From Phocicoccus schoeneichii (GTDB lineage Bacteria > Bacillota > Bacilli > Staphylococcales > Salinicoccaceae): DNA of 64,000 nucleotides. Below are positions 15,750 through 35,822 of this stretch, one piece after another. The notes under the pieces were generated by a model. It was not told where the DNA came from. It saw only the letters and a program-made list of their open reading frames with translations, and did not search any database. Where the stretch lies: NCBI RefSeq assembly GCF_014635565.1, contig NZ_BMDB01000001.1, positions 558,001 through 622,000 on the forward strand, in the 5' to 3' direction. The number at the start of each line of letters is the position of its first letter. Position 1 is the first letter of the stretch. The translations under genes and the position numbers were made by a program.

Positions 15750-16650
15750 TGATAAATCCCTCCACTTGTTCGAATGTATCAATATTTCTAGTTGAAATCT
15801 CTTTACTAATCTTTCTAACAAGACCTGATTGAACTTTCTTAGGTCCTACTTCGATTGATTCCGTTACGCCTAATTCCACTGCCGTTTCTACACATTCTAC
15901 AAAACGTACTGGTGATGTAATCTGTTCAATCAAGTTTTCTTTAATTGTGCTCGCATCCGTCTCAGCTTTTGCAGAAACGTTTTGTATTACAGGAATTACA
16001 GCATTATTGAATTCAATTGACTCTACGAATTCTCGGAATAAGACTTTCGCATCGTCCATTAAGTATGAGTGGAATGCACCGGATACTTTTAATGGCATCG
16101 CTCTTCTTGCCCCATGTTCTTTTGCGACACTTGTGAATGCTTCAACCTTGTCTTTATCACCAGAAACCACAATTTGGTCAGGTGCGTTAATATTCGCAGG
16201 TGCTACTTTTTCTGTATCTGAGGATAACTCTTCACAAAGTGCTACAAGCTTGTCTTTATCCATACCAATAATTGCTGCCATCGCACCAGTATCTGCTTGG
16301 CTCATCAGTTCACCGCGTTTTACAACTGCTTTAATACCATCTTCTAAAGATAAAACACCGGCATGTACAAGGGCTGGCAACTCTCCAAGTGAATGACCAA
16401 TCAGGTAGTCTCCTTGAATATCTGTTGCAGCAAGTACAGCAAGTGAATGTGCAAATAATGCAGGTTGCGTGTACTGTGTTTCATTAAGTCTCTCATCATC
16501 TTCACTAAACATAATTGACTTTAAATCAAAATCGATCGCATTAAAAATTTTGTCGAGTAATTCACGTGCTTTGTCACTATTCTCATATAAGTCTTTTGCC
16601 ATAGTGCCATACTGCGCACCTTGTCCTGGAAACAGTACTAGTTTAGACAT
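15742..16650 (-). CDS. fabD: Malonyl-CoA:ACP transacylase FabD
   Basis: Transfers malonyl groups from CoA to acyl carrier protein. The nucleophilic serine is in [12 protein letters not shown], and the N-terminal [17 protein letters not shown] is diagnostic. The catalytic histidine lies in [10 protein letters not shown]. Length is 302 residues. It overlaps both plsX (8 bases) and fabG (8 bases), so the operon is tightly packed. Confidence 0.97.
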
Positions 16651-17623
16651 TATCTTTTATTCTCTCCTTAATTTTCTCGATCGCATTTGATTCTGCTAGA
16701 CTTCTTGTAACTCGAATTGCATTCTTGATTGCTAATGAATCACTAGAACCGTGTGCTTTTAATACTATGCCATCAAGACCAAGTAATGGTGCTCCACCAA
16801 ATTGACGATAATCCATCATATCTTTAAGAGCTTCAACATCTTTCTTTAGAACGAGTGCCGCAACTTTATTTACCGCACGTTTCAAGAATACATTCTTCAC
16901 TTCGCTTAAGAGACTCATGGATGTTCCTTCTATCGTTTTTAAAATGATGTTACCAGTAAATCCATCTGTTACTGCGATATCATATTTACCAGATAAAACG
17001 TCACGTGTCTCAAAGTATCCTTGGAAATTTAAATCACTATCTTTAAGTAGTTGATAAGTTTCTTTTGTAAGTGTTGTGCCTTTGATTTCTTCACTACCAT
17101 TATTTACAAGACCCACAGTCGGGTTTTTGCGACCTTCAACCGCTTCTACATAAACAGTTGCCATCTGTGCAAATTGTAATAAATGATTTGGCTTGTTTTC
17201 TGAGTTTGCACCCATATCTAGAAGCATGAGCCCTTTGTCACCTGTAGTTGGAATCATCGATGCAATCGCTGGTCTTTCAATTCCTTTAATTCTACCCACA
17301 ACAAATAATCCAGCAGTTAAGAGTGCACCTGTATTACCTGCAGATAAAACTGCAAGCGCTTCTTTATCTTTTACTGCTTTAGCTGCTCTCACAAGTGAAG
17401 AATCTTTCTTACGTCGGATTGATTTTACTGGGTCATCATCAGAGTTAATTGATTCTGATACCTCAATAAATTCAACGCGCTCATGTTGATGTGGAAAAGA
17501 TCCTTTAAGCCCGTAAGCTAAAATCTTAATATCATCATACTCATTTACTGCTTCTATCACACCATTTGCGATAGATTCAGGGGCGTTATCGCCACCCATT
17601 AGATCTACTGCAATTGTTTTCAT
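16643..17623 (-). CDS. plsX: Phosphate acyltransferase PlsX
   Basis: Acyl-ACP:phosphate transacylase that makes acyl-phosphate for PlsY, the first step of phospholipid synthesis in Firmicutes. Landmarks are MKTIAVDLMGGDNAPESIA, AVLSAGNTGALL and LGLDGIVLKAHGSSD. Length is 326 residues. It sits between fapR (4-base overlap) and fabD. It is linked metabolically with FakA encoded upstream in this window, because FakA/FakB feeds acyl-phosphate into the same step. Confidence 0.97.
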   Translation of the reverse strand: MKTIAVDLMGGDNAPESIANGVIEAVNEYDDIKILAYGLKGSFPHQHERVEFIEVSESINSDDDPVKSIRRKKDSSLVRAAKAVKDKEALAVLSAGNTGALLTAGLFVVGRIKGIERPAIASMIPTTGDKGLMLLDMGANSENKPNHLLQFAQMATVYVEAVEGRKNPTVGLVNNGSEEIKGTTLTKETYQLLKDSDLNFQGYFETRDVLSGKYDIAVTDGFTGNIILKTIEGTSMSLLSEVKNVFLKRAVNKVAALVLKKDVEALKDMMDYRQFGGAPLLGLDGIVLKAHGSSDSLAIKNAIRVTRSLAESNAIEKIKERIKDNV

Positions 17624-18186
17624 TTACTTTCACCTTCATTTTTAAAATACATCTCAAACTCCCCGACAAAAACGAGGATATCTTCAACAAAAGATTCTAC
17701 TCTTATTGTAGCAATTTTTCCGATCGTTTGAACTACTTTAGCGTGAGCGACTACTCTATCTCCTAAATGAACAGGTTTTCTAAATTCTATATTGGCACTT
17801 TTAGTCAGTGCGAGCGGTACATTAATCATTGCAACACAAAGTGAATTTGCTTGAGCAAATAAAAAATGCCCTCTTGTGAGCGTATTGTTATTAAATACAT
17901 GTGCTTCTTCTACATTGAATACAGAAGTTCCACTCTCATTTAATTTAACATTTACGATTTCACCGATGACGTCTTCAAGCATAATGCTCTTAATTTCATC
18001 TACTTCTTCCGCCACCCTTTTAATTCGAACTCTATGCTCTGGAATCTTTAATACTTGCCTATCAAGTCGAATCGTTTGAATAGAAACATTCAATCGCTCC
18101 GCAAGTGCTTCATCAGTTAAAAAAGGATCTCTCTCAATATATAACTTTAAAAGCTTTTGCCTATCTTCTTTTTTGTATTTAACCAA
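17620..18186 (-). CDS. fapR: Malonyl-CoA-responsive repressor FapR
   Basis: Global repressor of fatty-acid and phospholipid genes, released from DNA by malonyl-CoA. The N-terminal DeoR-like helix-turn-helix is visible (DPFLTDEALAERLNVSIQTIRLDR). The C-terminal hot-dog effector domain includes EAHVFNNNTLTRGHFLFAQANSLCVAMI. Length is 188 residues. A FapR operator lies across its own promoter at 18200-18216, so the operon is autoregulated. Confidence 0.97.
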   Translation of the reverse strand: MVKYKKEDRQKLLKLYIERDPFLTDEALAERLNVSIQTIRLDRQVLKIPEHRVRIKRVAEEVDEIKSIMLEDVIGEIVNVKLNESGTSVFNVEEAHVFNNNTLTRGHFLFAQANSLCVAMINVPLALTKSANIEFRKPVHLGDRVVAHAKVVQTIGKIATIRVESFVEDILVFVGEFEMYFKNEGESK

Positions 18187-18199
18187 GTAATCGCCCCAT

Positions 18200-18216
18200 T
18201 TAGTAGTTGGTACTAA
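18200..18216 (-). promoter_or_regulatory. FapR operator
   Basis: On the minus strand the 17-base sequence TTAGTACCAACTACTAA fits the FapR box (inverted TTAGTAC half-sites). It starts just after the -10 box and so covers the expected transcription start of fapR. Confidence 0.85.
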
Positions 18217-22465: not shown

Positions 22466-24109
22466 TTATTCTGCTGAAATTAAGTAACTATATACTGGTT
22501 GTTTACCATCATGAACTTCAAATTCGACATCTTCGAATTCTTCTTCAATCTTATCCAACACACTTTCTAGTGTATCATTATTTCCGTCTTCACCGATGAA
22601 TACAGTAACGATTTCTGTATCTTCATCAATCATCTTACGAATTAGGACATCTAAAGTCTCAGAGCCTTCATCGTTTGACGTTATAATTTTACCGTCTAAA
22701 ATACCCATGTGTTGGTCTTTCTTAATATCGATATCATCGATTTTAGTATCACGTACTGAGTACGTAATTTGACCAGTTTTCACATGCTGAATTGCTTCAA
22801 CCATGTCATCTTCATTAGCTTCTAAAGATGCGTCTTTCGTATATGCAAACATCGCGCTGACACATTCAGGAATTGAACGTGTTGGAATCACGATGCTTGG
22901 CACTTCCAATAATTCTTGTGCTTGCTCAGCTGCCATGATGATATTTTTATTGTTTGGCATAATGATAACTTCTTTTACATCTTCGTCTTTAATGATGTTA
23001 ATGATATCTTCAGTTGATGGGTTCATTGTTTGACCCCCACTGATGATATGTGTCACACCGATACTTTTAAGCATCTCATTAATACCTTCACCACTTGATA
23101 CTGCGATAATTGCTGTGTCTATTTTTTCTTTTTTCTCATTAGACTTGCCACGTTTATCTTCAATTGCTCTGAACTGTTCACGCATATTGTCTACTTTAAT
23201 CTTGATAATCTCACCGTATTCTGCACCGTAAGTAAGTGCTTTACCTGGTGTTTCAGTGTGCACGTGCACTTTAACGATTTCATCGTCATTAATCACAAGT
23301 AATGAATCTCCGAATTTGTCCATATCGTTTCTGAAGTCTTCTTCAATAAACTCTTTCTTACCATCTTCAAAACGAACCATGAATTCTGTACAGAAACCAA
23401 ATGTAATATCTTCTGCAGACATAAACTCTTCAAATTCATGCGTATCATTAATAAATTCATCTGTATCAACTGAATCCGCTTCATCTTCTACAATTTCTTC
23501 ACCAGTTAATGCTGATAAAAATCCTTCGTACACATAAACTAAACCTTGTCCCCCAGAGTCTACTACACCAACTTCTTTTAGAACGGGTAATAAGTCAGGA
23601 GTTCTCTTAAGTGACGCTTTAGATTCTTCAACAACGATCTTCATAAGTTCTGCGATGTCTGTCACAGAATCTACTGAATCAACGGCTTTTTGAGCTGAAT
23701 CTTTAGCTACTGTTAGAATTGTACCTTCTACTGGTTTCATTACAGCTTTATACGCTGTCTTAACTCCAGCTTCTAATGCTTCAACGAATGAATGAATATC
23801 TAGAGTTTCTACTTCTTCAACGTGCTTAGAAAACCCTCTGAATAATTGTGATAAAATTACGCCTGAGTTTCCACGTGCACCCATTAAAAGTCCTCTTGAG
23901 AAATGTTTACCTACTTCTCCGACATGCGTAGATTTTACATCCTTAACTTCATCTGCACCCGATGACATCGATAAATTCATATTAGTTCCAGTATCACCGT
24001 CAGGAACTGGGAATACGTTAAGTGAATCAACGTAGTCCGCATTCTTTTTTAAGTTGTTTGCACCAAGTAAAATCATCTGGCGAAACTGTTGACCATCTAT
24101 TTTCTCCAT
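22466..24109 (-). CDS. fakA: Fatty acid kinase subunit FakA
   Basis: ATP-binding kinase subunit that phosphorylates fatty acids bound to FakB, feeding exogenous fatty acids into phospholipid synthesis. It was formerly called YloV or DAK2-domain protein. The N-terminal DhaL domain has the nucleotide loop FPVPDGDTGTNMNLSM and LLMGARGNSGVILSQLFRGF. The C-terminal domain is EDD/DegV-like (AIIAVSSGEGINEMLKSIG, HIISGGQTMNPSTEDI). Length is 547 residues. It follows yloU by 19 bases. A FakB partner is not encoded in this window. Confidence 0.95.
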   Translation of the reverse strand: MEKIDGQQFRQMILLGANNLKKNADYVDSLNVFPVPDGDTGTNMNLSMSSGADEVKDVKSTHVGEVGKHFSRGLLMGARGNSGVILSQLFRGFSKHVEEVETLDIHSFVEALEAGVKTAYKAVMKPVEGTILTVAKDSAQKAVDSVDSVTDIAELMKIVVEESKASLKRTPDLLPVLKEVGVVDSGGQGLVYVYEGFLSALTGEEIVEDEADSVDTDEFINDTHEFEEFMSAEDITFGFCTEFMVRFEDGKKEFIEEDFRNDMDKFGDSLLVINDDEIVKVHVHTETPGKALTYGAEYGEIIKIKVDNMREQFRAIEDKRGKSNEKKEKIDTAIIAVSSGEGINEMLKSIGVTHIISGGQTMNPSTEDIINIIKDEDVKEVIIMPNNKNIIMAAEQAQELLEVPSIVIPTRSIPECVSAMFAYTKDASLEANEDDMVEAIQHVKTGQITYSVRDTKIDDIDIKKDQHMGILDGKIITSNDEGSETLDVLIRKMIDEDTEIVTVFIGEDGNNDTLESVLDKIEEEFEDVEFEVHDGKQPVYSYLISAE

Positions 24110-26257: not shown

Positions 26258-26901
26258 TTTTGTTTAATATCCAAAATTGTTTGTTTTGGATCCTCTGATT
26301 TAAATAAGAATGAACCACTCACTAATAAATCCGCACCCGCTTCAGCACATAATTTACCAGTTTCATCATTCACGCCACCATCCACTTCAATGAGGAAGTC
26401 TAATTGTTTCTTCTTTCTAATTTCATCGAGTTCTTTAATTTTATCGATACCACTCATAATGAAGCTTTGTCCACCAAATCCAGGATTTACAGTCATTACA
26501 AGTACGAAATCTACAATATCTAGGACATATTTGATTGACTCTACAGGTGTGCTTGGATTTAAGACAATCCCTGCTTTCATACCTTTAGACTGAATATGAG
26601 TGATCAATCTATGCGCATGAGCAGTTGCTTCGATATGAAAACTTAAATACTCTACACCCATCGCTTGAAATTCATCAACAAATTGTTCTGGATCTTCAGT
26701 CATTAAGTGAACATCTAAGGGTATATTAGATTCTTTTGCAATCGCTTCACATACTGGAATTCCGTATGAAATGTTTGGTACAAACTGTCCATCCATAATA
26801 TCTAGATGAAAAATATCAGCCCCAGCTTCTTCCATTCTCTTCATGTCAGAACCTAAGTTTAAAAAATCACTTGCTAATAATGATGGTAATACTTTAACCA
26901 T
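26254..26901 (-). CDS. rpe: Ribulose-phosphate 3-epimerase
   Basis: Pentose-phosphate pathway TIM-barrel enzyme, 215 residues. Metal- and substrate-binding motifs are visible: FHLDIMDGQFVPNISYG, DVHLMTEDPEQF, VMTVNPGFGGQSF and EVDGGVNDETG. Its ATG overlaps the rsgA stop by one base, so translation is coupled. Confidence 0.97.
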   Translation of the reverse strand: MVKVLPSLLASDFLNLGSDMKRMEEAGADIFHLDIMDGQFVPNISYGIPVCEAIAKESNIPLDVHLMTEDPEQFVDEFQAMGVEYLSFHIEATAHAHRLITHIQSKGMKAGIVLNPSTPVESIKYVLDIVDFVLVMTVNPGFGGQSFIMSGIDKIKELDEIRKKKQLDFLIEVDGGVNDETGKLCAEAGADLLVSGSFLFKSEDPKQTILDIKQK

Positions 26902-27767
26902 TAATATCGCTCCTTGTAGTTTTCTATTTCCTCATAAATTTGTAGATAGCTCTCGTATCTCGTCCTATTTATATCTTCAGATTCTACCGCACTCTTCACA
27001 CCACATTTGGGTTCGTTGATGTGATTACATCCACGGAATTTACAAGACTCACTCGGCATATCGAAATCTATGAAACAATATTTAAGTGCCTCTTTTTCTA
27101 TGTGCGTAAATTCTATAGTAGAAAACCCTGGTGTATCGGCAACAAGACCACCGTTCTTTTCAACGAGCTCTACATGTCTCGTTGTATGCTTTCCACGACC
27201 AAGCGCCTTACTCACCTCACCAGTTTCGAGTCCAAGTTTTGGTAATAATGTGTTAAGCAAAGTGCTCTTTCCAACCCCTGTTTGCCCTGCAAGTACTGAT
27301 AGTTTATCTGTAAAAACCTCTCTTAAATCTTCGTCAAAATGCTCTTTAGAAGTAAAGAATATCTTATACATTTTGTACGTTTCTTTTATCTTCTCAATTA
27401 ACGCTTCATCAGTATTTAAATCTTTTTTCGTAATAATTAACACGGGCTCAATATCAAATGATTCGCTATATGCAATAAAGCGGTCGGTCAGATAAAAACT
27501 GAAATCCGGACTTTTCAAACTCATCGTAATGAGCATTTGGTCGACGTTTGCAACTTGCGGTCTCTTCAGTGCATTCTTTCTTTCGTGAATAGTTGTGAGT
27601 GTACCTTCAGTTAAATTGTCTGATTCAAAATCAACAATATCCCCAACTAATGGGCTGTTCATTCCTGATTTACGAAATATGCCACGCGCCCGTGTTTGAT
27701 ATACCTCTTCATCTACTTTGATGTAATAAAATCCTGAGAGTGCTTTAATAATTCGTCCTGTTCTCAT
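26901..27767 (-). CDS. rsgA: Small ribosomal subunit biogenesis GTPase RsgA
   Basis: Circularly permuted GTPase for 30S maturation (YloQ/CpgA). An N-terminal OB fold precedes the G domain; G4 TKKD comes before G1 GQTGVGKSTLLN and G3 DTPGFS, the permuted order. The C-terminal zinc-binding cluster Cys-x-x-x-x-Cys...His...Cys is in CKFRGCNHINEPKCGVK. Length is 288 residues. In relatives the gene follows prkC directly; here a 5-kb block separates them, so it must have its own promoter in the short gap to the rhodanese gene. Confidence 0.96.
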   Translation of the reverse strand: MRTGRIIKALSGFYYIKVDEEVYQTRARGIFRKSGMNSPLVGDIVDFESDNLTEGTLTTIHERKNALKRPQVANVDQMLITMSLKSPDFSFYLTDRFIAYSESFDIEPVLIITKKDLNTDEALIEKIKETYKMYKIFFTSKEHFDEDLREVFTDKLSVLAGQTGVGKSTLLNTLLPKLGLETGEVSKALGRGKHTTRHVELVEKNGGLVADTPGFSTIEFTHIEKEALKYCFIDFDMPSESCKFRGCNHINEPKCGVKSAVESEDINRTRYESYLQIYEEIENYKERY

Positions 27768-28230: not shown

Positions 28231-30264
28231 TTATGCTGGTGACACTTTTTCTTTTCTACTTTTAATAATGTTCAGTGCAAATATCACAATTACAATTGCG
28301 AGTCCGATGATATCCGTGATTGTTTCAGGGATAATCAGAGAAATTGCTGCTGCACCGATTAGGATTCTAAATAGCCAGTTTAAGTTTGTAGCAAAGTAAC
28401 CTTCAAGTGCTGCAGAAATCGCAACGATACCAATAACTGTGGTTGTCACAACGACCGCGACATCCATCATATTCGCAAGTGGATATTCTCTCGCATTCAT
28501 CGCAAGTCCTTCCACATTAATGAGTAATAATGATGGATCGAATACGAATACAAATGGGACTAAGAAACCAGCTAACGACAGTTTAAATGCTGCAAATCCT
28601 GTCTTCATCGGATCTCCACCTGAAATACCTGCACCCGCAAATGCCGCTAGTGCCACTGGTGGTGTTACGTTCGCGAAAATACCGAAGTAGAACACAAACA
28701 TGTGTGCAACAAGTACTGGCACTCCGTATTCAGCTAAAGCTGGTGCTGCCATAGTTGCTGTGATGATATACGCTGGAATTGATGGTAACCCCATTCCAAG
28801 TACGAGTGAAGCAATCATCGTGAAGAAACATGTAAGTAGTAATGAACCTGCGCCAAGTGCAGCAATTGCTGAAGCAAGTACTGAACCGAAGCTTGTTAGT
28901 GATACTACCCCAATGATGACACCAACAATCGCACAGGCAATCATAACTGACAGTGATTGTTTCGCACCAAGTTCAAGTGCCTCCAACACATCTTTAAATG
29001 ACATGCGCGTTGTTTTCTTAATCTGAGCGACTAAGATTGTGATACCAATCGTATAAATCGCTGCTCTACCGATTGGTAAGTTCAAGTAAAGCATATAAAT
29101 TAAAGCAACAATTGGTAATAGTAAATGTCCACGTTCTTTAAGTACTGTTGAAACTTGTGGTAATGCTGCTTTACTAATTCCAGTTAGGTTATTTCTACCT
29201 GCTCTAAAGTGAACCTGCATGATCACTGCACCAAAGTAAAGTAGTGCTGGGATTGCTGCTGCAAGTGCGATCGTAGAGTATTTAATTCCTGTAGTCTCTG
29301 CCATGATAAACGCACTCGCACCCATGATTGGTGGCAAGATTTGTCCACCAATTGAAGAACTTGCCTCAACGGCTCCAGCGAATGTTCTACCATATCCTAC
29401 TTTTTTCATTAGTGGAATAGTAAATGCACCTGTACTTACTACGTTTGCTACTGCCGCACCGTTGATACTACCCATGAACCCACTTGATACAACTGCTACC
29501 TTAGCAGGACCACCTTTATATCCTCCAGCTAATGCAAGTGCTAAATCGTTAAAGAATAACCCCATTCCAGACTTTTGTAAGAATGCACCAAATAAAATGA
29601 ACAGAAAGATAAAGTTCACAGATGCACCAATGGCTGTAGAATAAAGGCCTTCAGTCTTAGTGTATAAGTGTCCAAATACATCGCCAAAATCAAATGGACG
29701 TGTATATAGTAAGTTCGGCATAAAATCTAAGGAACTAATGAACGGGTAAATTAAGAACAGTAACGCAAGTATCGGAAGAATGAATCCCGTTACCCTTCTC
29801 GTTGCTTCAAAGATTAGCACAACAGTTAGGACCGCAAAGATTAGGTCCGTCGTATTTGGAATTCCACCACGTTCCGTTACGATTGCTGTGTAGTTAAATA
29901 CTATGTACCCTGCAGTCGCAAGACCAAGTAATGCTAAAACCCAATCATACCAAGGTGCTTTCGTTCTATCTGACGTTTTAAATATTGGGTAAAGTAAGAA
30001 GATTAAAGCAAGACCTACTGCAACATGAATCGCACGTGCTTGTAATGTTGGAATCGGATTAAAGACAATGTATATGTGAAACAATGAGTAAAATACTGCA
30101 ATAATCGATACAATCATTGCGACATGTTTCGATTTAAATACACGAGTTGTTGAATCTCGGTCATATTTTTCTAAAACTTCTTGAACATCAGCTTCTAGAT
30201 TTTCACCTTCTCTAGCTACGATATCTTCAGCTGTTATAACCTCTTTTTCGTCACGCTTCGTCAT
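28231..30264 (-). CDS. TRAP transporter fused permease (TAXI type)
   Basis: Fused small and large membrane subunits of a TRAP secondary transporter, 677 residues with some 16-19 predicted hydrophobic segments. A cytoplasmic N terminus of about 45 residues precedes the first helix. The DctM-like part contains GFMGSINGAAVANVVSTGAF, SSSIGGQILPPIMGASAF and GMGLPSIPAYIITATMAAPAL, typical of 4TM/12TM fusion permeases. It is preceded by its DUF1850 and TAXI-binding-protein genes, so the complete transporter is here. The substrate is unknown; characterised members import dicarboxylates or glutamate, sodium-coupled. Confidence 0.94.
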   Translation of the reverse strand: MTKRDEKEVITAEDIVAREGENLEADVQEVLEKYDRDSTTRVFKSKHVAMIVSIIAVFYSLFHIYIVFNPIPTLQARAIHVAVGLALIFLLYPIFKTSDRTKAPWYDWVLALLGLATAGYIVFNYTAIVTERGGIPNTTDLIFAVLTVVLIFEATRRVTGFILPILALLFLIYPFISSLDFMPNLLYTRPFDFGDVFGHLYTKTEGLYSTAIGASVNFIFLFILFGAFLQKSGMGLFFNDLALALAGGYKGGPAKVAVVSSGFMGSINGAAVANVVSTGAFTIPLMKKVGYGRTFAGAVEASSSIGGQILPPIMGASAFIMAETTGIKYSTIALAAAIPALLYFGAVIMQVHFRAGRNNLTGISKAALPQVSTVLKERGHLLLPIVALIYMLYLNLPIGRAAIYTIGITILVAQIKKTTRMSFKDVLEALELGAKQSLSVMIACAIVGVIIGVVSLTSFGSVLASAIAALGAGSLLLTCFFTMIASLVLGMGLPSIPAYIITATMAAPALAEYGVPVLVAHMFVFYFGIFANVTPPVALAAFAGAGISGGDPMKTGFAAFKLSLAGFLVPFVFVFDPSLLLINVEGLAMNAREYPLANMMDVAVVVTTTVIGIVAISAALEGYFATNLNWLFRILIGAAAISLIIPETITDIIGLAIVIVIFALNIIKSRKEKVSPA

Positions 30265-30274
30265 GTTATACCTC

Positions 30275-30748
30275 CTATAATCGAAGTAAATAAAAAATTA
30301 GTGGTGTGGACGCTACCTCTATCTCAACTGAACTATAGTCTTCATAAATTTCATATAACTTTAATTCATTAGAATCAAAATGAACTGTTGTTTGTACGTT
30401 ATTTGAGACATTAAGTAAAATTGGCGGTCTTAATTCATTGATTGTCAGTTCAACAAAACCATCATCATTTAATTTAGATATATATTTCACATCTGTTGGC
30501 ACACCTGCACCAAATGTTTTAAATGATGATTTTGTTAAGAAAAGTGCACCATCTCTTATTTCATAGGTCTCGAACCACTCTTCTTTTTCAACAGAATGAA
30601 TCCAATGAATCTCAAAAGAATCATTATAAATTTTTTCAACGTGTCCATTTTCCCCAGTAATTTTTAAATAATCGACCTTGATCAATATTAGAAAAAGGAG
30701 CATTAAGATAATGCTCCCAATTAAGATTAATTTTTTACTGCTCATCAT
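30275..30748 (-). CDS. DUF1850 protein of a TAXI-TRAP transporter
   Basis: Protein of about 157 residues with one N-terminal hydrophobic segment (KLILIGSIILMLLFLILI) and an extracytoplasmic beta-rich domain. IHWIHSVEKEEWFETYEI and SFKTFGAGVPTD are the conserved DUF1850 motifs. DUF1850 genes accompany TAXI-TRAP transporters, but their function is not known. The start overlaps the end of the TAXI gene by 14 bases; the second of two adjacent ATG codons is equally possible. Confidence 0.83.
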   Translation of the reverse strand: MMSSKKLILIGSIILMLLFLILIKVDYLKITGENGHVEKIYNDSFEIHWIHSVEKEEWFETYEIRDGALFLTKSSFKTFGAGVPTDVKYISKLNDDGFVELTINELRPPILLNVSNNVQTTVHFDSNELKLYEIYEDYSSVEIEVASTPLIFYLLRL

Positions 30749-31712
30749 AGTAGCGTTTTGCACCTGGGTGCAGTTCGCCTACTGAGATATTTTGTGCTTC
30801 TTCAAAGTTGATATCTTTTGCTGCCTGGTGAGAGTTTTCTAATTTGTCTAGGTTCTCAAATAGATATTTTGTAAGTTCATACACATCATCTTCACTTAAG
30901 TCAGAACGTACTACAAGTGCGTTTCTGATTGCAGCAGTTGGAATGTCTTCATCATTTCCATATGTTCCAGCTGGAATTGGTAATGATTCAAAGATAGGTA
31001 CGCTTTCTTTAAGCGTTTCAACTGCTTCAGCTTCGATTGGAACAATTTTTAAATCTACAGAGTTTTGAAGTTCCATCACTGATGCATTTGGTAATCCACT
31101 TGTCGTAAATGCAACATCGATCGAACCACTCTTAAGTGCGTCAGCAGCTTCAGCATATCCGAGATAGTCTACTTCTATGTCATCATATGTAATGCCATGT
31201 GCTTCTAACACTGCTTTCGTTGCGATTTCAACACCTGATCCTTGGTCACCTACAGCGACACGTTTACCTTTGATGTCATCGACACTTTCTACACCTGTTT
31301 TACCAGTTGTGATGATTTGAACATAGTTTGGATAGAGGTTTGCTAAAATTTGAACGTTGTCTATTTTTTCAGTAAATCCATCTGTACCTTCAAGTGCTTG
31401 AAGTAATGCGTCACTCATAACAAATGACATTTCAACTTTTTCTTGCGCCATTAAATTTAAGTTCTCAACAGACGCACCAGTGGTTTGCGTTCTTGAGTTA
31501 ATGCCAAACTCTTTAGAGTAACCGTCTGCAAGTGTCGTTGCGATAATGTTATATGGACCAGAAGATCCACCAGTCGCGATCGTAAGGATACGTGTATCTA
31601 AGCCTTTTGTATCCTTATCTCCTCCATCGCTACTTTCTTTGTTGTCGTTACCACATGCCACTAAAACTAAGGTAACAGCAACTAATAAAAACATAACTAT
31701 ACGTTTGTACAT
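30735..31712 (-). CDS. TAXI family TRAP solute-binding lipoprotein
   Basis: Extracytoplasmic solute receptor of the TAXI group, 325 residues. The signal peptide MYKRIVMFLLVAVTLVLVAC ends in a lipobox (LVAC, Cys20), so the mature protein is anchored in the membrane by lipid. A Ser/Asp/Gly linker follows. The family motif is ILTIATGGSSGPYNIIATTLA, and GKRVAVGDQGSGVEIATKAVLEA lies in the middle. The start is fixed by GGAGGTATAAAT before the ATG at 31712. It is the first gene of the TAXI-DUF1850-TRAP operon. Confidence 0.93.
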   Translation of the reverse strand: MYKRIVMFLLVAVTLVLVACGNDNKESSDGGDKDTKGLDTRILTIATGGSSGPYNIIATTLADGYSKEFGINSRTQTTGASVENLNLMAQEKVEMSFVMSDALLQALEGTDGFTEKIDNVQILANLYPNYVQIITTGKTGVESVDDIKGKRVAVGDQGSGVEIATKAVLEAHGITYDDIEVDYLGYAEAADALKSGSIDVAFTTSGLPNASVMELQNSVDLKIVPIEAEAVETLKESVPIFESLPIPAGTYGNDEDIPTAAIRNALVVRSDLSEDDVYELTKYLFENLDKLENSHQAAKDINFEEAQNISVGELHPGAKRYYDEQ

Positions 31713-31742
31713 ATTTATACCTCCAATTTCAAGTTTAATTAA

Positions 31743-31771
31743 ATTATACCCTAAATACAAATATATGAAAA
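31743..31771 (-). promoter_or_regulatory. Promoter of the TAXI-TRAP operon
   Basis: Minus-strand -35 TTTTCA (weak), 17-base spacer and -10 TATAAT preceded by GGG, 30 bases before the lipoprotein start. Confidence 0.5.
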
Positions 31772-31794
31772 CGCTTGAATTCAGAAAATTAAAA

Positions 31795-31820
31795 AAGACA
31801 CTCAAAACTTTGAGTGTCTT
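31795..31820 (-). terminator. Intrinsic terminator of the P450 gene
   Basis: An 11-bp stem (AAGACACTCAA / TTGAGTGTCTT) with a T run on the minus strand, ten bases past the P450 stop. It separates the P450 from the TAXI-TRAP operon. Confidence 0.9.
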
Positions 31821-31830
31821 AGTCTTAATA

Positions 31831-33099
31831 TTATGAGCGGTCTACGTTTTCACGTACGTTCGAAATGATCATTCCGCTGTTTACGTATCCTGGGATACTA
31901 TTTAAGTTAACATCCATGTCTTGTTCTGGTACATCGTAAACAATTTTGTTTGCGAAGTATTTGAATGATTCTTCCATGATGATTACTGTGATCCACTCAC
32001 CAGCACAACGGTGGTTAGTCCAGTAGTCTCCGCCACCTTGCGGAATAAGGTCGAATGGTGATCCATCCCAATCTAAGAATCTTTCTGGGTTGAATTCATT
32101 TGGATTATCCCATAATTTTGGATCATGAGTTGTTCCGTAAATATCAATAACAAGTGATTGATCCGCTGGTAATGTTACCCCATCAATTTCAACTTCCACT
32201 TTCGTTTTACCAGGTAAGAATGGTACGAATGGGAAGAAGCGACGTACTTCTTGACTGAACATATAAGGATAATCTTTAACTGTTTTCATTTTTTCAACTG
32301 CTTCAGGGTGTTTATGAAGTGCAAGTACTCCATAAGAAATGAAGCGGTTGATTGCGATTAATGGACGGAATGTGTTCATTAAGTCTATCGCACATAATCT
32401 AGAATCCATTTGATTTCCTTCATAGTCAGTCCATCTAGCGAACTCATAAAGTGCAGTTCCTTTTGGAGGGTGAATTTCACCTTTACGTGTTTTGATTACT
32501 TGATCTTCTAACCAGTCTTCAACACGTTTACGTGCAGCTTTAGATGATCTGTATCCTTTAAATGCGCCACCTAGACCTTTGAATGAGTCAATCATGATAT
32601 CCATGTCTGTAGCAATTTGTTCGATTTCAGATTCTGGAGCTTGTACTCCCGCCCAACGTGTACCAACACGAGTTAATAGAATGATTGATTCACGGTATAC
32701 GTTAACTTCATCCATTTGCTCCATGCGCTCTGTGTTAGCCATCCAGAAGTTACGTGTTAATTCACGTACATACTCAAGGTTACCCTCAGTCATTAATGAC
32801 ATGAATAAAGCTTTTCTGTCAATGTGTTGTTTTCCTGTTGTTGTATGAATTGCACCTTTTCCGAATAGTGTATTTACAACACGTTTAGGTAATGTGCCCT
32901 GACGCTCAATCTTATCGTTATCGTAAAACAGTTCAGCTGCTTCTTTCCCGTTAAGTACAACGAATGATTTACCACCTAACGCGCGTGTTTCAAACACATT
33001 TGTGCCGAGGCGTTCTCTTTGATTACTTGTATATAAGTAACCTTCGCGCATCACTTTTAATGTGTTGTCTAAACCTTTGTCTCTTTTTAAAGTTGCCAT
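31831..33099 (-). CDS. oleT: OleT-like CYP152 cytochrome P450 (fatty-acid decarboxylase)
   Basis: Peroxygenase-type P450 of 422 residues, the same length as OleT (CYP152L1) of Jeotgalicoccus and collinear with it from the N terminus MATLKRDKGLDNTLKV onward. OleT uses H2O2 to decarboxylate fatty acids to terminal alkenes, with some alpha/beta hydroxylation. Residues important in OleT fall at the same numbers here: Phe79, His85 (GKGAIH), Arg245 (MNTFRPL, binds the carboxylate) and the haem ligand Cys365 (TNHRCAGEW). His85 distinguishes decarboxylating members from the Gln of the Bacillus hydroxylase. The start has GGAGG 8 bases upstream. The gene has its own promoter and terminator. The family assignment is firm; the alkene activity is inferred. 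Confidence 0.93.
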   Translation of the reverse strand: MATLKRDKGLDNTLKVMREGYLYTSNQRERLGTNVFETRALGGKSFVVLNGKEAAELFYDNDKIERQGTLPKRVVNTLFGKGAIHTTTGKQHIDRKALFMSLMTEGNLEYVRELTRNFWMANTERMEQMDEVNVYRESIILLTRVGTRWAGVQAPESEIEQIATDMDIMIDSFKGLGGAFKGYRSSKAARKRVEDWLEDQVIKTRKGEIHPPKGTALYEFARWTDYEGNQMDSRLCAIDLMNTFRPLIAINRFISYGVLALHKHPEAVEKMKTVKDYPYMFSQEVRRFFPFVPFLPGKTKVEVEIDGVTLPADQSLVIDIYGTTHDPKLWDNPNEFNPERFLDWDGSPFDLIPQGGGDYWTNHRCAGEWITVIIMEESFKYFANKIVYDVPEQDMDVNLNSIPGYVNSGMIISNVRENVDRS

Positions 33100-33132
33100 A
33101 ATTTATTCCTCCACTTGAAGTTTCCATAATCA

Positions 33133-33162
33133 ATTATACAAATAACTGTCTCACAGTGCCAA
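33133..33162 (-). promoter_or_regulatory. Promoter of the P450 gene with internal palindrome
   Basis: Minus-strand -35 TTGGCA (33157-33162), 18-base spacer, -10 TATAAT (33133-33138). The spacer holds an inverted repeat ACTGT-n3-ACAGT (33145-33157) abutting the -35 box, a possible operator. Confidence 0.6.
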
Positions 33163-33165
33163 TAT

Positions 33166-35082
33166 TTACTCGTTTTCTACTACTTCTTCTATAATCTTTT
33201 CTCCATCGACTTCAACTTTATACTTTCCATCCTCGCCTTCCTCTAATGCGAGAGTGATTGTATGCTTACGGTCTTCAGTGATTTCAAATTCTTCTAGGAT
33301 CTCGTCGTAGTCGTGATCCTTATCATCGATATAGATTTTAACTTTACTTGGTTTTTTATCTTTTTTACTTGATGAATAAGGAATTTCGATATTGAGTTGA
33401 TATTGTGTGATTTCTTTCGGCTCCTTACCTTTTGAAACGATTAAATTGATTGGTGAACCTGGTAAAAATGATCCATAACTTGGATCTTGACTCACGATTG
33501 CACCACTTTCAATTTCCTCATCGTATATTTCATTGATGACATTTACTTTGAAGCCAAGCGATTCTAACTCGTTTCTAGCATCTGTTAACTGCCATCCAAC
33601 GTAGTTAGAAATTTCAACAGGTTCTACACCATCACTCACCGTAAGTGTCAGTGTCTCGTTCTCAGGGAAGATAGATACTCCGCTTCGAATCGACTGCTTC
33701 ATAATTTCACCAGCTGGCACGTCATTACTGTATTCTGTCTGTATATCTACCTTATCAAACTTCAGTGCATCAATATCTGATTGAACACTTTCCAACTTAC
33801 TTCCGACAAAATCCCCCATAGTATAAGGTTCAGGACCCTTAGAAACGATTAAATCAACTGTTGAACCTTCCTCTAGTACTGCTCCTTTTTTAGGTGCCGA
33901 CGCAATGACATTACCAGAAGCGAAATCATCATTGTACTCTTCAGTCACTTCACCTAAAACAAGATTCATCTCGGTTAGTCTTGCTTCAGCATCCGCCTGG
34001 GACATTTCGCTTAAATCAACTAGTTCTACAGTATTCGGTTCTTTCGGCCATAGTAGATAAATCACAGCGGCTAAAGAAACGAGTACAAATAGAAGGAAAA
34101 GAACCCACGGCCAAATACGTTTCTTTTTCTTTTCAGGCTCTTCTTGAACAGGTGCTACTACTGGTTCTTTTTCTTTTGCTTCAACCTTTGGTGTATCTTC
34201 TTTTAAAGGTACTGGAATTGGTGCTGGACGATTCTCAGGTTCTTTTCTACCCTTTTGAAGATAATGAATCGTCTCATTTCTATAGTTGAGTAATACTTGA
34301 ATGACTTCCCTAACATTTGAGTAACGGTTCTCAGGTTCTTTCTCTGTACATTTGAGTACAATGTTTTCAAGTCCCACTGGCGTTTCTCTGTAGTCATTAA
34401 TATTCGGAATATCATCTTGGATATGTTGTAAGGCGACAGATACTTGTGTTTCTGCTTGGAATGGTAATTCACCAGTTATTAGCTCAAATAGCATGATACC
34501 AAATGAATATATGTCTGCGCGTTCGTCTGCACTTTTACCTTTTGCTTGTTCTGGTGAAATGTATTGTACAGATCCCATCACTTGGTTTGTCTCTGTGAGA
34601 CGTGTTTCACTAAGTGCCTTCGCAATACCAAAATCTGCGATTTTTATATTCCCTTTTTTATCAATTAAAATGTTTTGTGGTTTAATATCTCTGTGAACAA
34701 TACCTCTGTTATGGGCGTGTTCAATACCACTTAAAACACTGATAGATAACTCAATAATCTTTTCAAAATCAATTGGATTGTTTTTGTTTATATATTCTTT
34801 TAAGTTTGAACCATCCACATATTCAGTTACTAAAATATTGTATTCATCTGAATCATCCACATCTAATACCGTTACAATATTTGGATGAGATAATTTAGTT
34901 ACGTTTTGTACTTCACGTTGGAATCGCTCTACAGTTTTTTCTTTATTATACGGATCCGCCTTGATGAGTTTTACTACGACTTCTCTATCTAGGATAATAT
35001 CCTCTGCAAGATAAACAGAACTCATTCCACCGCCAAGATACTTTTTAAGTAAATATCTATCGGCTATAATTTTTTCAGTCAT
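33166..35082 (-). CDS. prkC: PASTA-domain Ser/Thr protein kinase
   Basis: Membrane eukaryote-like kinase (PrkC/Stk1) that senses muropeptides or lipid II. The kinase domain covers residues 10-270: glycine loop LGGGMSSVYLAED, Lys38, catalytic HRDIKPQN (Asp132) and DFG at 150-152. A Pro/Lys linker leads to one transmembrane helix at about 323-345 (WPWVLFLLFVLVSLAAVIYLLW). Three PASTA repeats follow (roughly 352-556), each closing with VSKG or SDG, then a C-terminal beta domain. Length is 638 residues. It shares one base with stp, its phosphatase partner. Confidence 0.97.
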   Translation of the reverse strand: MTEKIIADRYLLKKYLGGGMSSVYLAEDIILDREVVVKLIKADPYNKEKTVERFQREVQNVTKLSHPNIVTVLDVDDSDEYNILVTEYVDGSNLKEYINKNNPIDFEKIIELSISVLSGIEHAHNRGIVHRDIKPQNILIDKKGNIKIADFGIAKALSETRLTETNQVMGSVQYISPEQAKGKSADERADIYSFGIMLFELITGELPFQAETQVSVALQHIQDDIPNINDYRETPVGLENIVLKCTEKEPENRYSNVREVIQVLLNYRNETIHYLQKGRKEPENRPAPIPVPLKEDTPKVEAKEKEPVVAPVQEEPEKKKKRIWPWVLFLLFVLVSLAAVIYLLWPKEPNTVELVDLSEMSQADAEARLTEMNLVLGEVTEEYNDDFASGNVIASAPKKGAVLEEGSTVDLIVSKGPEPYTMGDFVGSKLESVQSDIDALKFDKVDIQTEYSNDVPAGEIMKQSIRSGVSIFPENETLTLTVSDGVEPVEISNYVGWQLTDARNELESLGFKVNVINEIYDEEIESGAIVSQDPSYGSFLPGSPINLIVSKGKEPKEITQYQLNIEIPYSSSKKDKKPSKVKIYIDDKDHDYDEILEEFEITEDRKHTITLALEEGEDGKYKVEVDGEKIIEEVVENE

Positions 35083-35822
35083 TATGTTCTACCATCTTTC
35101 AACTGTGCAAGGATTACACTTATATTATCTTTCGACTTCAAAGACACCGCTTCATTTACTAAATCTTCAGTAATACGATCCACATCATTTCCCTTATACA
35201 CAATGTTGTGGAGTGTCTCTTCATTCATTTTATCTGTCAAACCATCTGAAGCGAGAAGTAGATAGTCATACTGTCTATTTCTAAGTTTAAAGACATCTGG
35301 TTGGACGAGTCTCGTAGTTCCAAGTGCTTTAGTCACAATATTTCTTTGTGGATGAACGAATGCTTCTTCTTGTGTAATTTCACCTGATTCAACAAGCATG
35401 TTTACAAATGTATGATCTTTCGTCACCTGTAAAATTTCTCGTTTTTGTAATGCATATACACGAGAGTCTCCAATATTTAAAACATATATTGATTCGTCAG
35501 TAATCACTGCCATTGCAAGTGTTGTACCCATGTTATGTTCTGTAGTTTCTTCATTTGAATATAAATAAAGTGCTCGATTTGTTTTTATCACTAAATCTCT
35601 TAAGAATGGTTCTAGCTCTTGCTCATTAAAAAAGTTTGAATTTATCCATGTTTCTTCGATTTTATCGATGACAAATTGAGCGGCAACTTCACCTTTTTCA
35701 TGGCCACCCATTCCATCTGCTACAAGAAGTAGCATTTGATCAGTCTTATTTTTAAACACACCGATACGGTCTTCATTTAATTCTCTATAGTTACCTGTAA
35801 TACTCTTCGTACTAATGTTCAC
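35082..35822 (-). CDS. stp: PP2C-type Ser/Thr phosphatase
   Basis: Manganese-dependent PPM phosphatase (PrpC/Stp) that reverses PrkC phosphorylation. Metal-binding aspartates are in NEDRIGVF, LLVADGMGGHEKGE, LNIGDSRVY, LLASDGLTDKM and SKDNISVIL. Length is 246 residues. It lies directly after rsmB (20 bases). In Bacillus subtilis rlmN sits between rsmB and the phosphatase; it is absent here. Confidence 0.97.
   Translation of the reverse strand: MNISTKSITGNYRELNEDRIGVFKNKTDQMLLLVADGMGGHEKGEVAAQFVIDKIEETWINSNFFNEQELEPFLRDLVIKTNRALYLYSNEETTEHNMGTTLAMAVITDESIYVLNIGDSRVYALQKREILQVTKDHTFVNMLVESGEITQEEAFVHPQRNIVTKALGTTRLVQPDVFKLRNRQYDYLLLASDGLTDKMNEETLHNIVYKGNDVDRITEDLVNEAVSLKSKDNISVILAQLKDGRT

Follow-up and report, generated by a model that had tools for sequence, protein, structure and literature searches.

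Does Phocicoccus schoeneichii carry a P450 enzyme that forms terminal alkenes, and does the position of its gene, beside prkC and near fapR, plsX and fakA, indicate what those alkenes are for? We addressed these questions in the window, the whole 64,000-nucleotide stretch of DNA analysed here, in which the gene and its flanking signals are as follows.

31831..33099, minus strand: oleT, predicted CYP152L-type P450 peroxygenase/fatty-acid decarboxylase of 422 amino acids (open reading frame, 75% identity to OleT_JE, key residues, tree)
33133..33162, minus strand: oleT promoter, TTGGCA-18-TATAAT, its -35 box beginning 63 nt before the ATG (11/12 match to consensus)
33108..33112, minus strand: oleT ribosome-binding site, GGAGG (direct reading)
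31795..31820, minus strand: intrinsic terminator after oleT, with an 11-pair stem, 4-base loop and T-run

Direct reading places the oleT frame, with its ATG start, exactly within these bounds. The top PDB match of its product by phmmer is OleT_JE (4l40; 766 bits, E 5e-230), the CYP152L1 enzyme of Jeotgalicoccus sp. ATCC 8456 (PDB 4L40/4L54). Residues 1 to 421 of the two proteins align without a gap and differ by 105 substitutions in 421 positions, and the window protein therefore follows the same residue numbering. It carries Phe79, His85, Ile170, Asn242, Arg245, Pro246 and Cys365 as in OleT_JE, including all of the decarboxylation-associated residues (Phe79, His85, Ile170 and Arg245) and those that bind the carboxylate. 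The sequence-only reading had claimed the length and numbering of OleT, with Phe79, His85, Arg245 and Cys365, and the alignment confirms this. Its description of the differences from OleT as scattered and conservative is roughly right, as only I74V and A317V stand out among the near-substrate positions inspected. Replacement of the I-helix acid-alcohol pair by Arg245 and Pro246, together with the heme ligand Cys365, marks the protein as a CYP152 enzyme, and its Pfam p450 score exceeds the cut-off. By contrast, its score of 490 bits against NCBIfam NF053744 (CypC, the BSbeta type) falls below the curated cut-off of 600, and it is not a member of that family. We detected no second P450 in this genome, and a scan of GTDB genomes found the nearest copy, 96% identical, in Phocicoccus pinnipedialis.

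Phylogeny leads to the same placement. In a quick tree of 114 CYP152 sequences, whose deep branches with long rows are uncertain, an OleT clade of 66 rows has an SH-aLRT value of 100. Within this clade, the window protein groups with other Phocicoccus and Nosocomiicoccus sequences and adjoins those of Jeotgalicoccus, including OleT_JE, which occupies an orthologous place in the gene tree; BSbeta, SPalpha, CYP152K6 and CYP152N1 all fall outside. Every OleT-clade sequence (65/65) has Phe79, His85, Asn242, Arg245, Pro246 and Cys365; among the other CYP152s, histidine at position 85 is confined to 3/48, and 45/48 have glutamine. Judged by its sequence, the window gene is an OleT (CYP152L) orthologue, the Phocicoccus version of an ordinary known enzyme.

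Several members of this group have been assayed. OleT_JE, OleT_JH, OleT_SQ and OleT_SA yield 84-93% 1-tridecene from myristate (C14), although product ratios vary with chain length and hydroxylation prevails for C20 (PMC6452516). CYP-Sm46 yields 78% 1-tridecene (PMC5588734). OleT_SQ (CYP152L8; PMC6452516) and OleT_LA of Lacicoccus (PMC12284513) are also decarboxylases by assay; Lacicoccus orthologues are ~76% identical to the window protein and occupy the same chromosomal slot, but belong to another genus and have two additional residues near position 33. The H85Q variant of OleT_JE still makes mainly alkenes (PMC5377825), so His85 by itself is no proof, and the activity assignment leans more on whole-protein orthology. 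Taken together, identity, residues and bracketing by assayed decarboxylases (PMC6452516, PMC12284513, PMC5588734) strongly support the earlier proposal of a terminal-alkene-forming, OleT-like P450, and the window protein is most likely an H2O2-driven fatty-acid decarboxylase yielding 1-alkenes.

Could the enzyme instead be mainly a fatty-acid hydroxylase of the BSbeta type, despite its OleT-like sequence? Every CYP152 gives mixed products, and P450 BSbeta of Bacillus subtilis (CYP152A1), which both hydroxylates and decarboxylates (PMC5588734), shares the peroxygenase fold and equivalents of Phe79, Arg245, Pro246 and the heme cysteine. Moreover, Val74 of the window protein matches BSbeta, and Val317 corresponds to Val319 of the less selective OleT_SA. 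Nevertheless, OleT_SA remains a decarboxylase, with 84% alkene from C14 (PMC6452516), and identity is 42% to BSbeta versus 75% to OleT_JE. BSbeta has Gln85 and Val170, whereas the window protein has the OleT-type His85 and Ile170 and is nested among assayed decarboxylases rather than with the BSbeta hydroxylases. We therefore regard a mainly hydroxylating enzyme as very unlikely. By the mechanism that others have shown in its relatives, the window protein would be a heme-thiolate peroxygenase in which a free fatty acid is anchored through its carboxylate to Arg245. Compound I, generated with H2O2, would remove a C-beta hydrogen, and loss of CO2 would then leave a 1-alkene, with the beta-hydroxy acid as a minor product.

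The sequence-only reading described OleT-type decarboxylases as known from few bacteria. We surveyed 157 genomes of the order, counting as OleT-type any gene with at least 55% identity or a partial match at a contig end. Such a gene is present in 33/33 genomes of Salinicoccaceae, the family to which Phocicoccus belongs, in the sole genome of a second family, in 24/24 genomes of four Macrococcus/Mammaliicoccus-type genera and in 13 Staphylococcus-type genomes, a minority of that group; it is absent from all genomes of a fourth family. Homologues with more than 60% identity had already been listed for Jeotgalicoccus, Staphylococcus and Salinicoccus (PMC6452516), and a review names other Jeotgalicoccus species as terminal-olefin producers (PMC5818669). 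Presence throughout the family and in most sister-family genera, together with the published homologues, contradicts the earlier view; 'few bacteria' is outdated for OleT, although published biochemistry covers only a handful. In the discovery paper for OleT (Rude et al. 2011), J. pinnipedialis, now Phocicoccus, was reportedly among the strains tested.

Wherever the contig is long enough, oleT lies between prkC and rsgA with all three genes on the same strand, and the sampled Staphylococcus genomes without oleT have prkC and rsgA adjacent in the same order. This pattern is most simply read as vertical inheritance of oleT from an ancestor shared by these families, followed by its loss from most Staphylococcus, and the conserved position of oleT follows from that descent. 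A horizontally acquired or mobile trait would accord with the lack of oleT in most Staphylococcus species and with the occurrence of other CYP152s on plasmids (114 records), but it would have to explain an identical slot everywhere, a gene tree that agrees with genus boundaries and presence in every Salinicoccaceae genome. As 72,556 plasmids also contain no OleT-type copy (best match, 42% identity), we consider mobility extremely improbable.

Two details of the Staphylococcus sequences deserve comment. One OleT frame (G122, 644-646 aa) looked split by ~190 aa and was considered as a candidate intein or domain insertion, but the insert reads as a run of N and supports no conclusion; at Staphylococcus locus L071 (7214-9148), ~190 codons of N, masked or a gap, lie in the OleT frame, and its intactness cannot be judged. 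In addition, OleT_SA (WP_049319149), labelled 'Staphylococcus aureus', is reported to be 69% identical to OleT_JE (PMC6452516). None of the copies in our comparison comes as close, whether from Staphylococcus (56-62%) or from Mammaliicoccus (64-65%), and the species label may be wrong.

Vertical inheritance bears directly on the meaning of the neighbourhood, which contains the following features.

35082..35822, minus strand: stp, PP2C phosphatase (NCBIfam NF033484, above cut-off)
33166..35082, minus strand: prkC/stk1, PASTA Ser/Thr kinase, directly upstream of oleT (NCBIfam NF033483, above cut-off)
30735..31805, minus strand: TAXI-family TRAP solute-binding protein, outside the OleT system (TIGR02122)
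28231..30264, minus strand: fused TRAP permease, in the same insertion as the TAXI protein (TIGR02123)
26901..27767, minus strand: rsgA, the conserved gene bordering the oleT slot opposite prkC, presumptively named from the known gene order (synteny)
22466-24109: fakA, ~8 kb from oleT (Pfam)
18200-18216: FapR-box-like site just upstream of fapR
17620..18186, minus strand: fapR (Pfam 4HBT plus HTH)
16643-17623: plsX (Pfam)

The 66-bp gap to prkC and the Pfam identities confirm that oleT adjoins prkC, with the FapR, PlsX and FakA genes within 15 kb. From this arrangement, the sequence-only reading had suggested that alkene formation could belong to lipid homeostasis or to detoxification of fatty acids, and position would likewise suggest that oleT functions in a FapR/PlsX/FakA phospholipid circuit or in PrkC signalling. 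In three families, every OleT-type locus whose flank is long enough has kept prkC as a neighbour; this and the nearness of fakA are consistent with such a role. The gap between prkC and oleT also holds no terminator, which would allow read-through from stp-prkC into oleT. However, oleT has its own conserved promoter and terminator, and the promoter element lies at -60 to -64 in 31/32 Salinicoccaceae upstream regions. We found no convincing FapR operator in 65 oleT upstream regions, the one match, in a Macrococcus, being weak with four mismatches; PerR operators upstream of oleT were no more convincing. The prkC and rsgA order is unchanged in Staphylococcus without oleT, and in Staphylococcaceae oleT can lie up to ~2.7 kb from prkC with unrelated genes between. 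The FapR, PlsX and FakA genes belong to a core gene order common to Bacilli, and their proximity to oleT is inherited gene order. Only map distance, therefore, connects alkene formation with FapR/PlsX/FakA lipid homeostasis, and we judge participation in this circuit or in PrkC signalling to be unlikely.

Nor does the prkC-rsgA slot indicate a functional partner, as the neighbours of oleT vary by genus and include an S41/PDZ-like protein, a rhodanese, a KUP transporter, a two-component system and a TRAP cassette, some of them named by reading the sequence. The TRAP cassette (28231-31805), between oleT and rsgA, encodes the TAXI solute-binding protein, a DUF1850 protein and the fused permease, with a rhodanese gene beside it. 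Among the loci compared, it occurs downstream of oleT only in the two Phocicoccus loci, a difference from the OleT_JE locus, and it is no evidence of a pathway shared with oleT. In Macrococcus and Mammaliicoccus, an S41/PDZ-like protein of ~290-400 aa, recognized by eye, lies between prkC and oleT (L033 7012-7878, L075 6018-6938, L079 5816-6748, L072 8418-9614); it is absent from this position in Salinicoccaceae. We also considered a regulon sharing the TTGGCA...TATAAT pattern. At the stringency of a whole-genome search, the pattern occurs in this genome only at oleT; in G000 and G001 only the oleT promoter matched, and matches elsewhere were at chance level.

How strongly the gene is used can be gauged indirectly from its codons. 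In a comparison of 11 local genes with P. pinnipedialis, oleT ranks lowest for both dN (0.024) and dS (0.62; the rest, 0.84-2.1), and the low dS points to codon selection. We sampled codon adaptation in three Salinicoccaceae genomes, one Mammaliicoccus and one Staphylococcus. Measured against the ribosomal-protein genes of its own genome, the adaptation of window oleT is 0.757, compared with a ribosomal median of 0.755 (z = 2.16; 7/187 sampled ORFs equal or higher, oleT itself included). Corresponding z values are 2.79 in Jeotgalicoccus (0/58 as high), 2.35 in Salinicoccus (2/70) and 2.07 in Mammaliicoccus (1/66), whereas oleT of the one Staphylococcus lacks ribosomal-range bias (z = 0.20; 25/65). 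Low dN and dS, together with a codon bias that is in the ribosomal range in four genera, are indirect signs and suggest that oleT is a strongly expressed core enzyme of Salinicoccaceae. Given the conserved promoter as well, oleT would be transcribed as a single-gene unit, and expression would probably be strong and constitutive. Overall, we are highly confident that the window holds a vertically inherited Phocicoccus OleT (CYP152L), a peroxygenase decarboxylase encoded as a single-gene unit with its own promoter, and probably a core enzyme whose expression is strong and constitutive.

More broadly, the likely physiological job of OleT would be steady conversion of free fatty acids, often branched, to hydrocarbon; a role in fatty-acid detoxification is possible. 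Our wider interpretation, which we offer tentatively and could well see overturned, is that OleT is a constitutive, abundant housekeeping enzyme of Salinicoccaceae and Mammaliicoccus/Macrococcus, kept at one site since their common ancestor, and that most Staphylococcus dropped the gene while those that kept it relaxed its expression. If so, terminal alkenes would be a standard membrane or cell hydrocarbon of these bacteria, or their formation a standing sink for peroxide and free fatty acids. The enzyme itself was to be expected; what is new is that its gene is universal in Salinicoccaceae, conserved in position and apparently strongly expressed, a status of which we found no report in a literature search that had most subscription journals outside its coverage. 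Research on OleT has dealt almost entirely with its use as a biofuel catalyst, and the papers searched do not address its natural role. The question is then no longer why alkene formation turns up in a few strains but what need Salinicoccaceae have of alkenes, and several dozen naturally diverged orthologues are now available for enzyme work.

Other CYP152 genes in these bacteria have had different histories. A second paralogue in Lacicoccus and Salinicoccus (L040 5569-6900, L041 5554-6888, L061 5323-6654) combines His85 with Leu79 and Val170, an unusual mix that lies outside the OleT clade and from which the product type is not predictable. In several genomes of Jeotgalicoccus, Nosocomiicoccus and Staphylococcus (L047 4986-5684; L062 5222-6472; L045 5667-6917; L089 6510-7756), a Gln85-type paralogue seems to be broken, either fragmented or interrupted by stop codons, while the three Jeotgalicoccus/Nosocomiicoccus genomes among them have an intact oleT.
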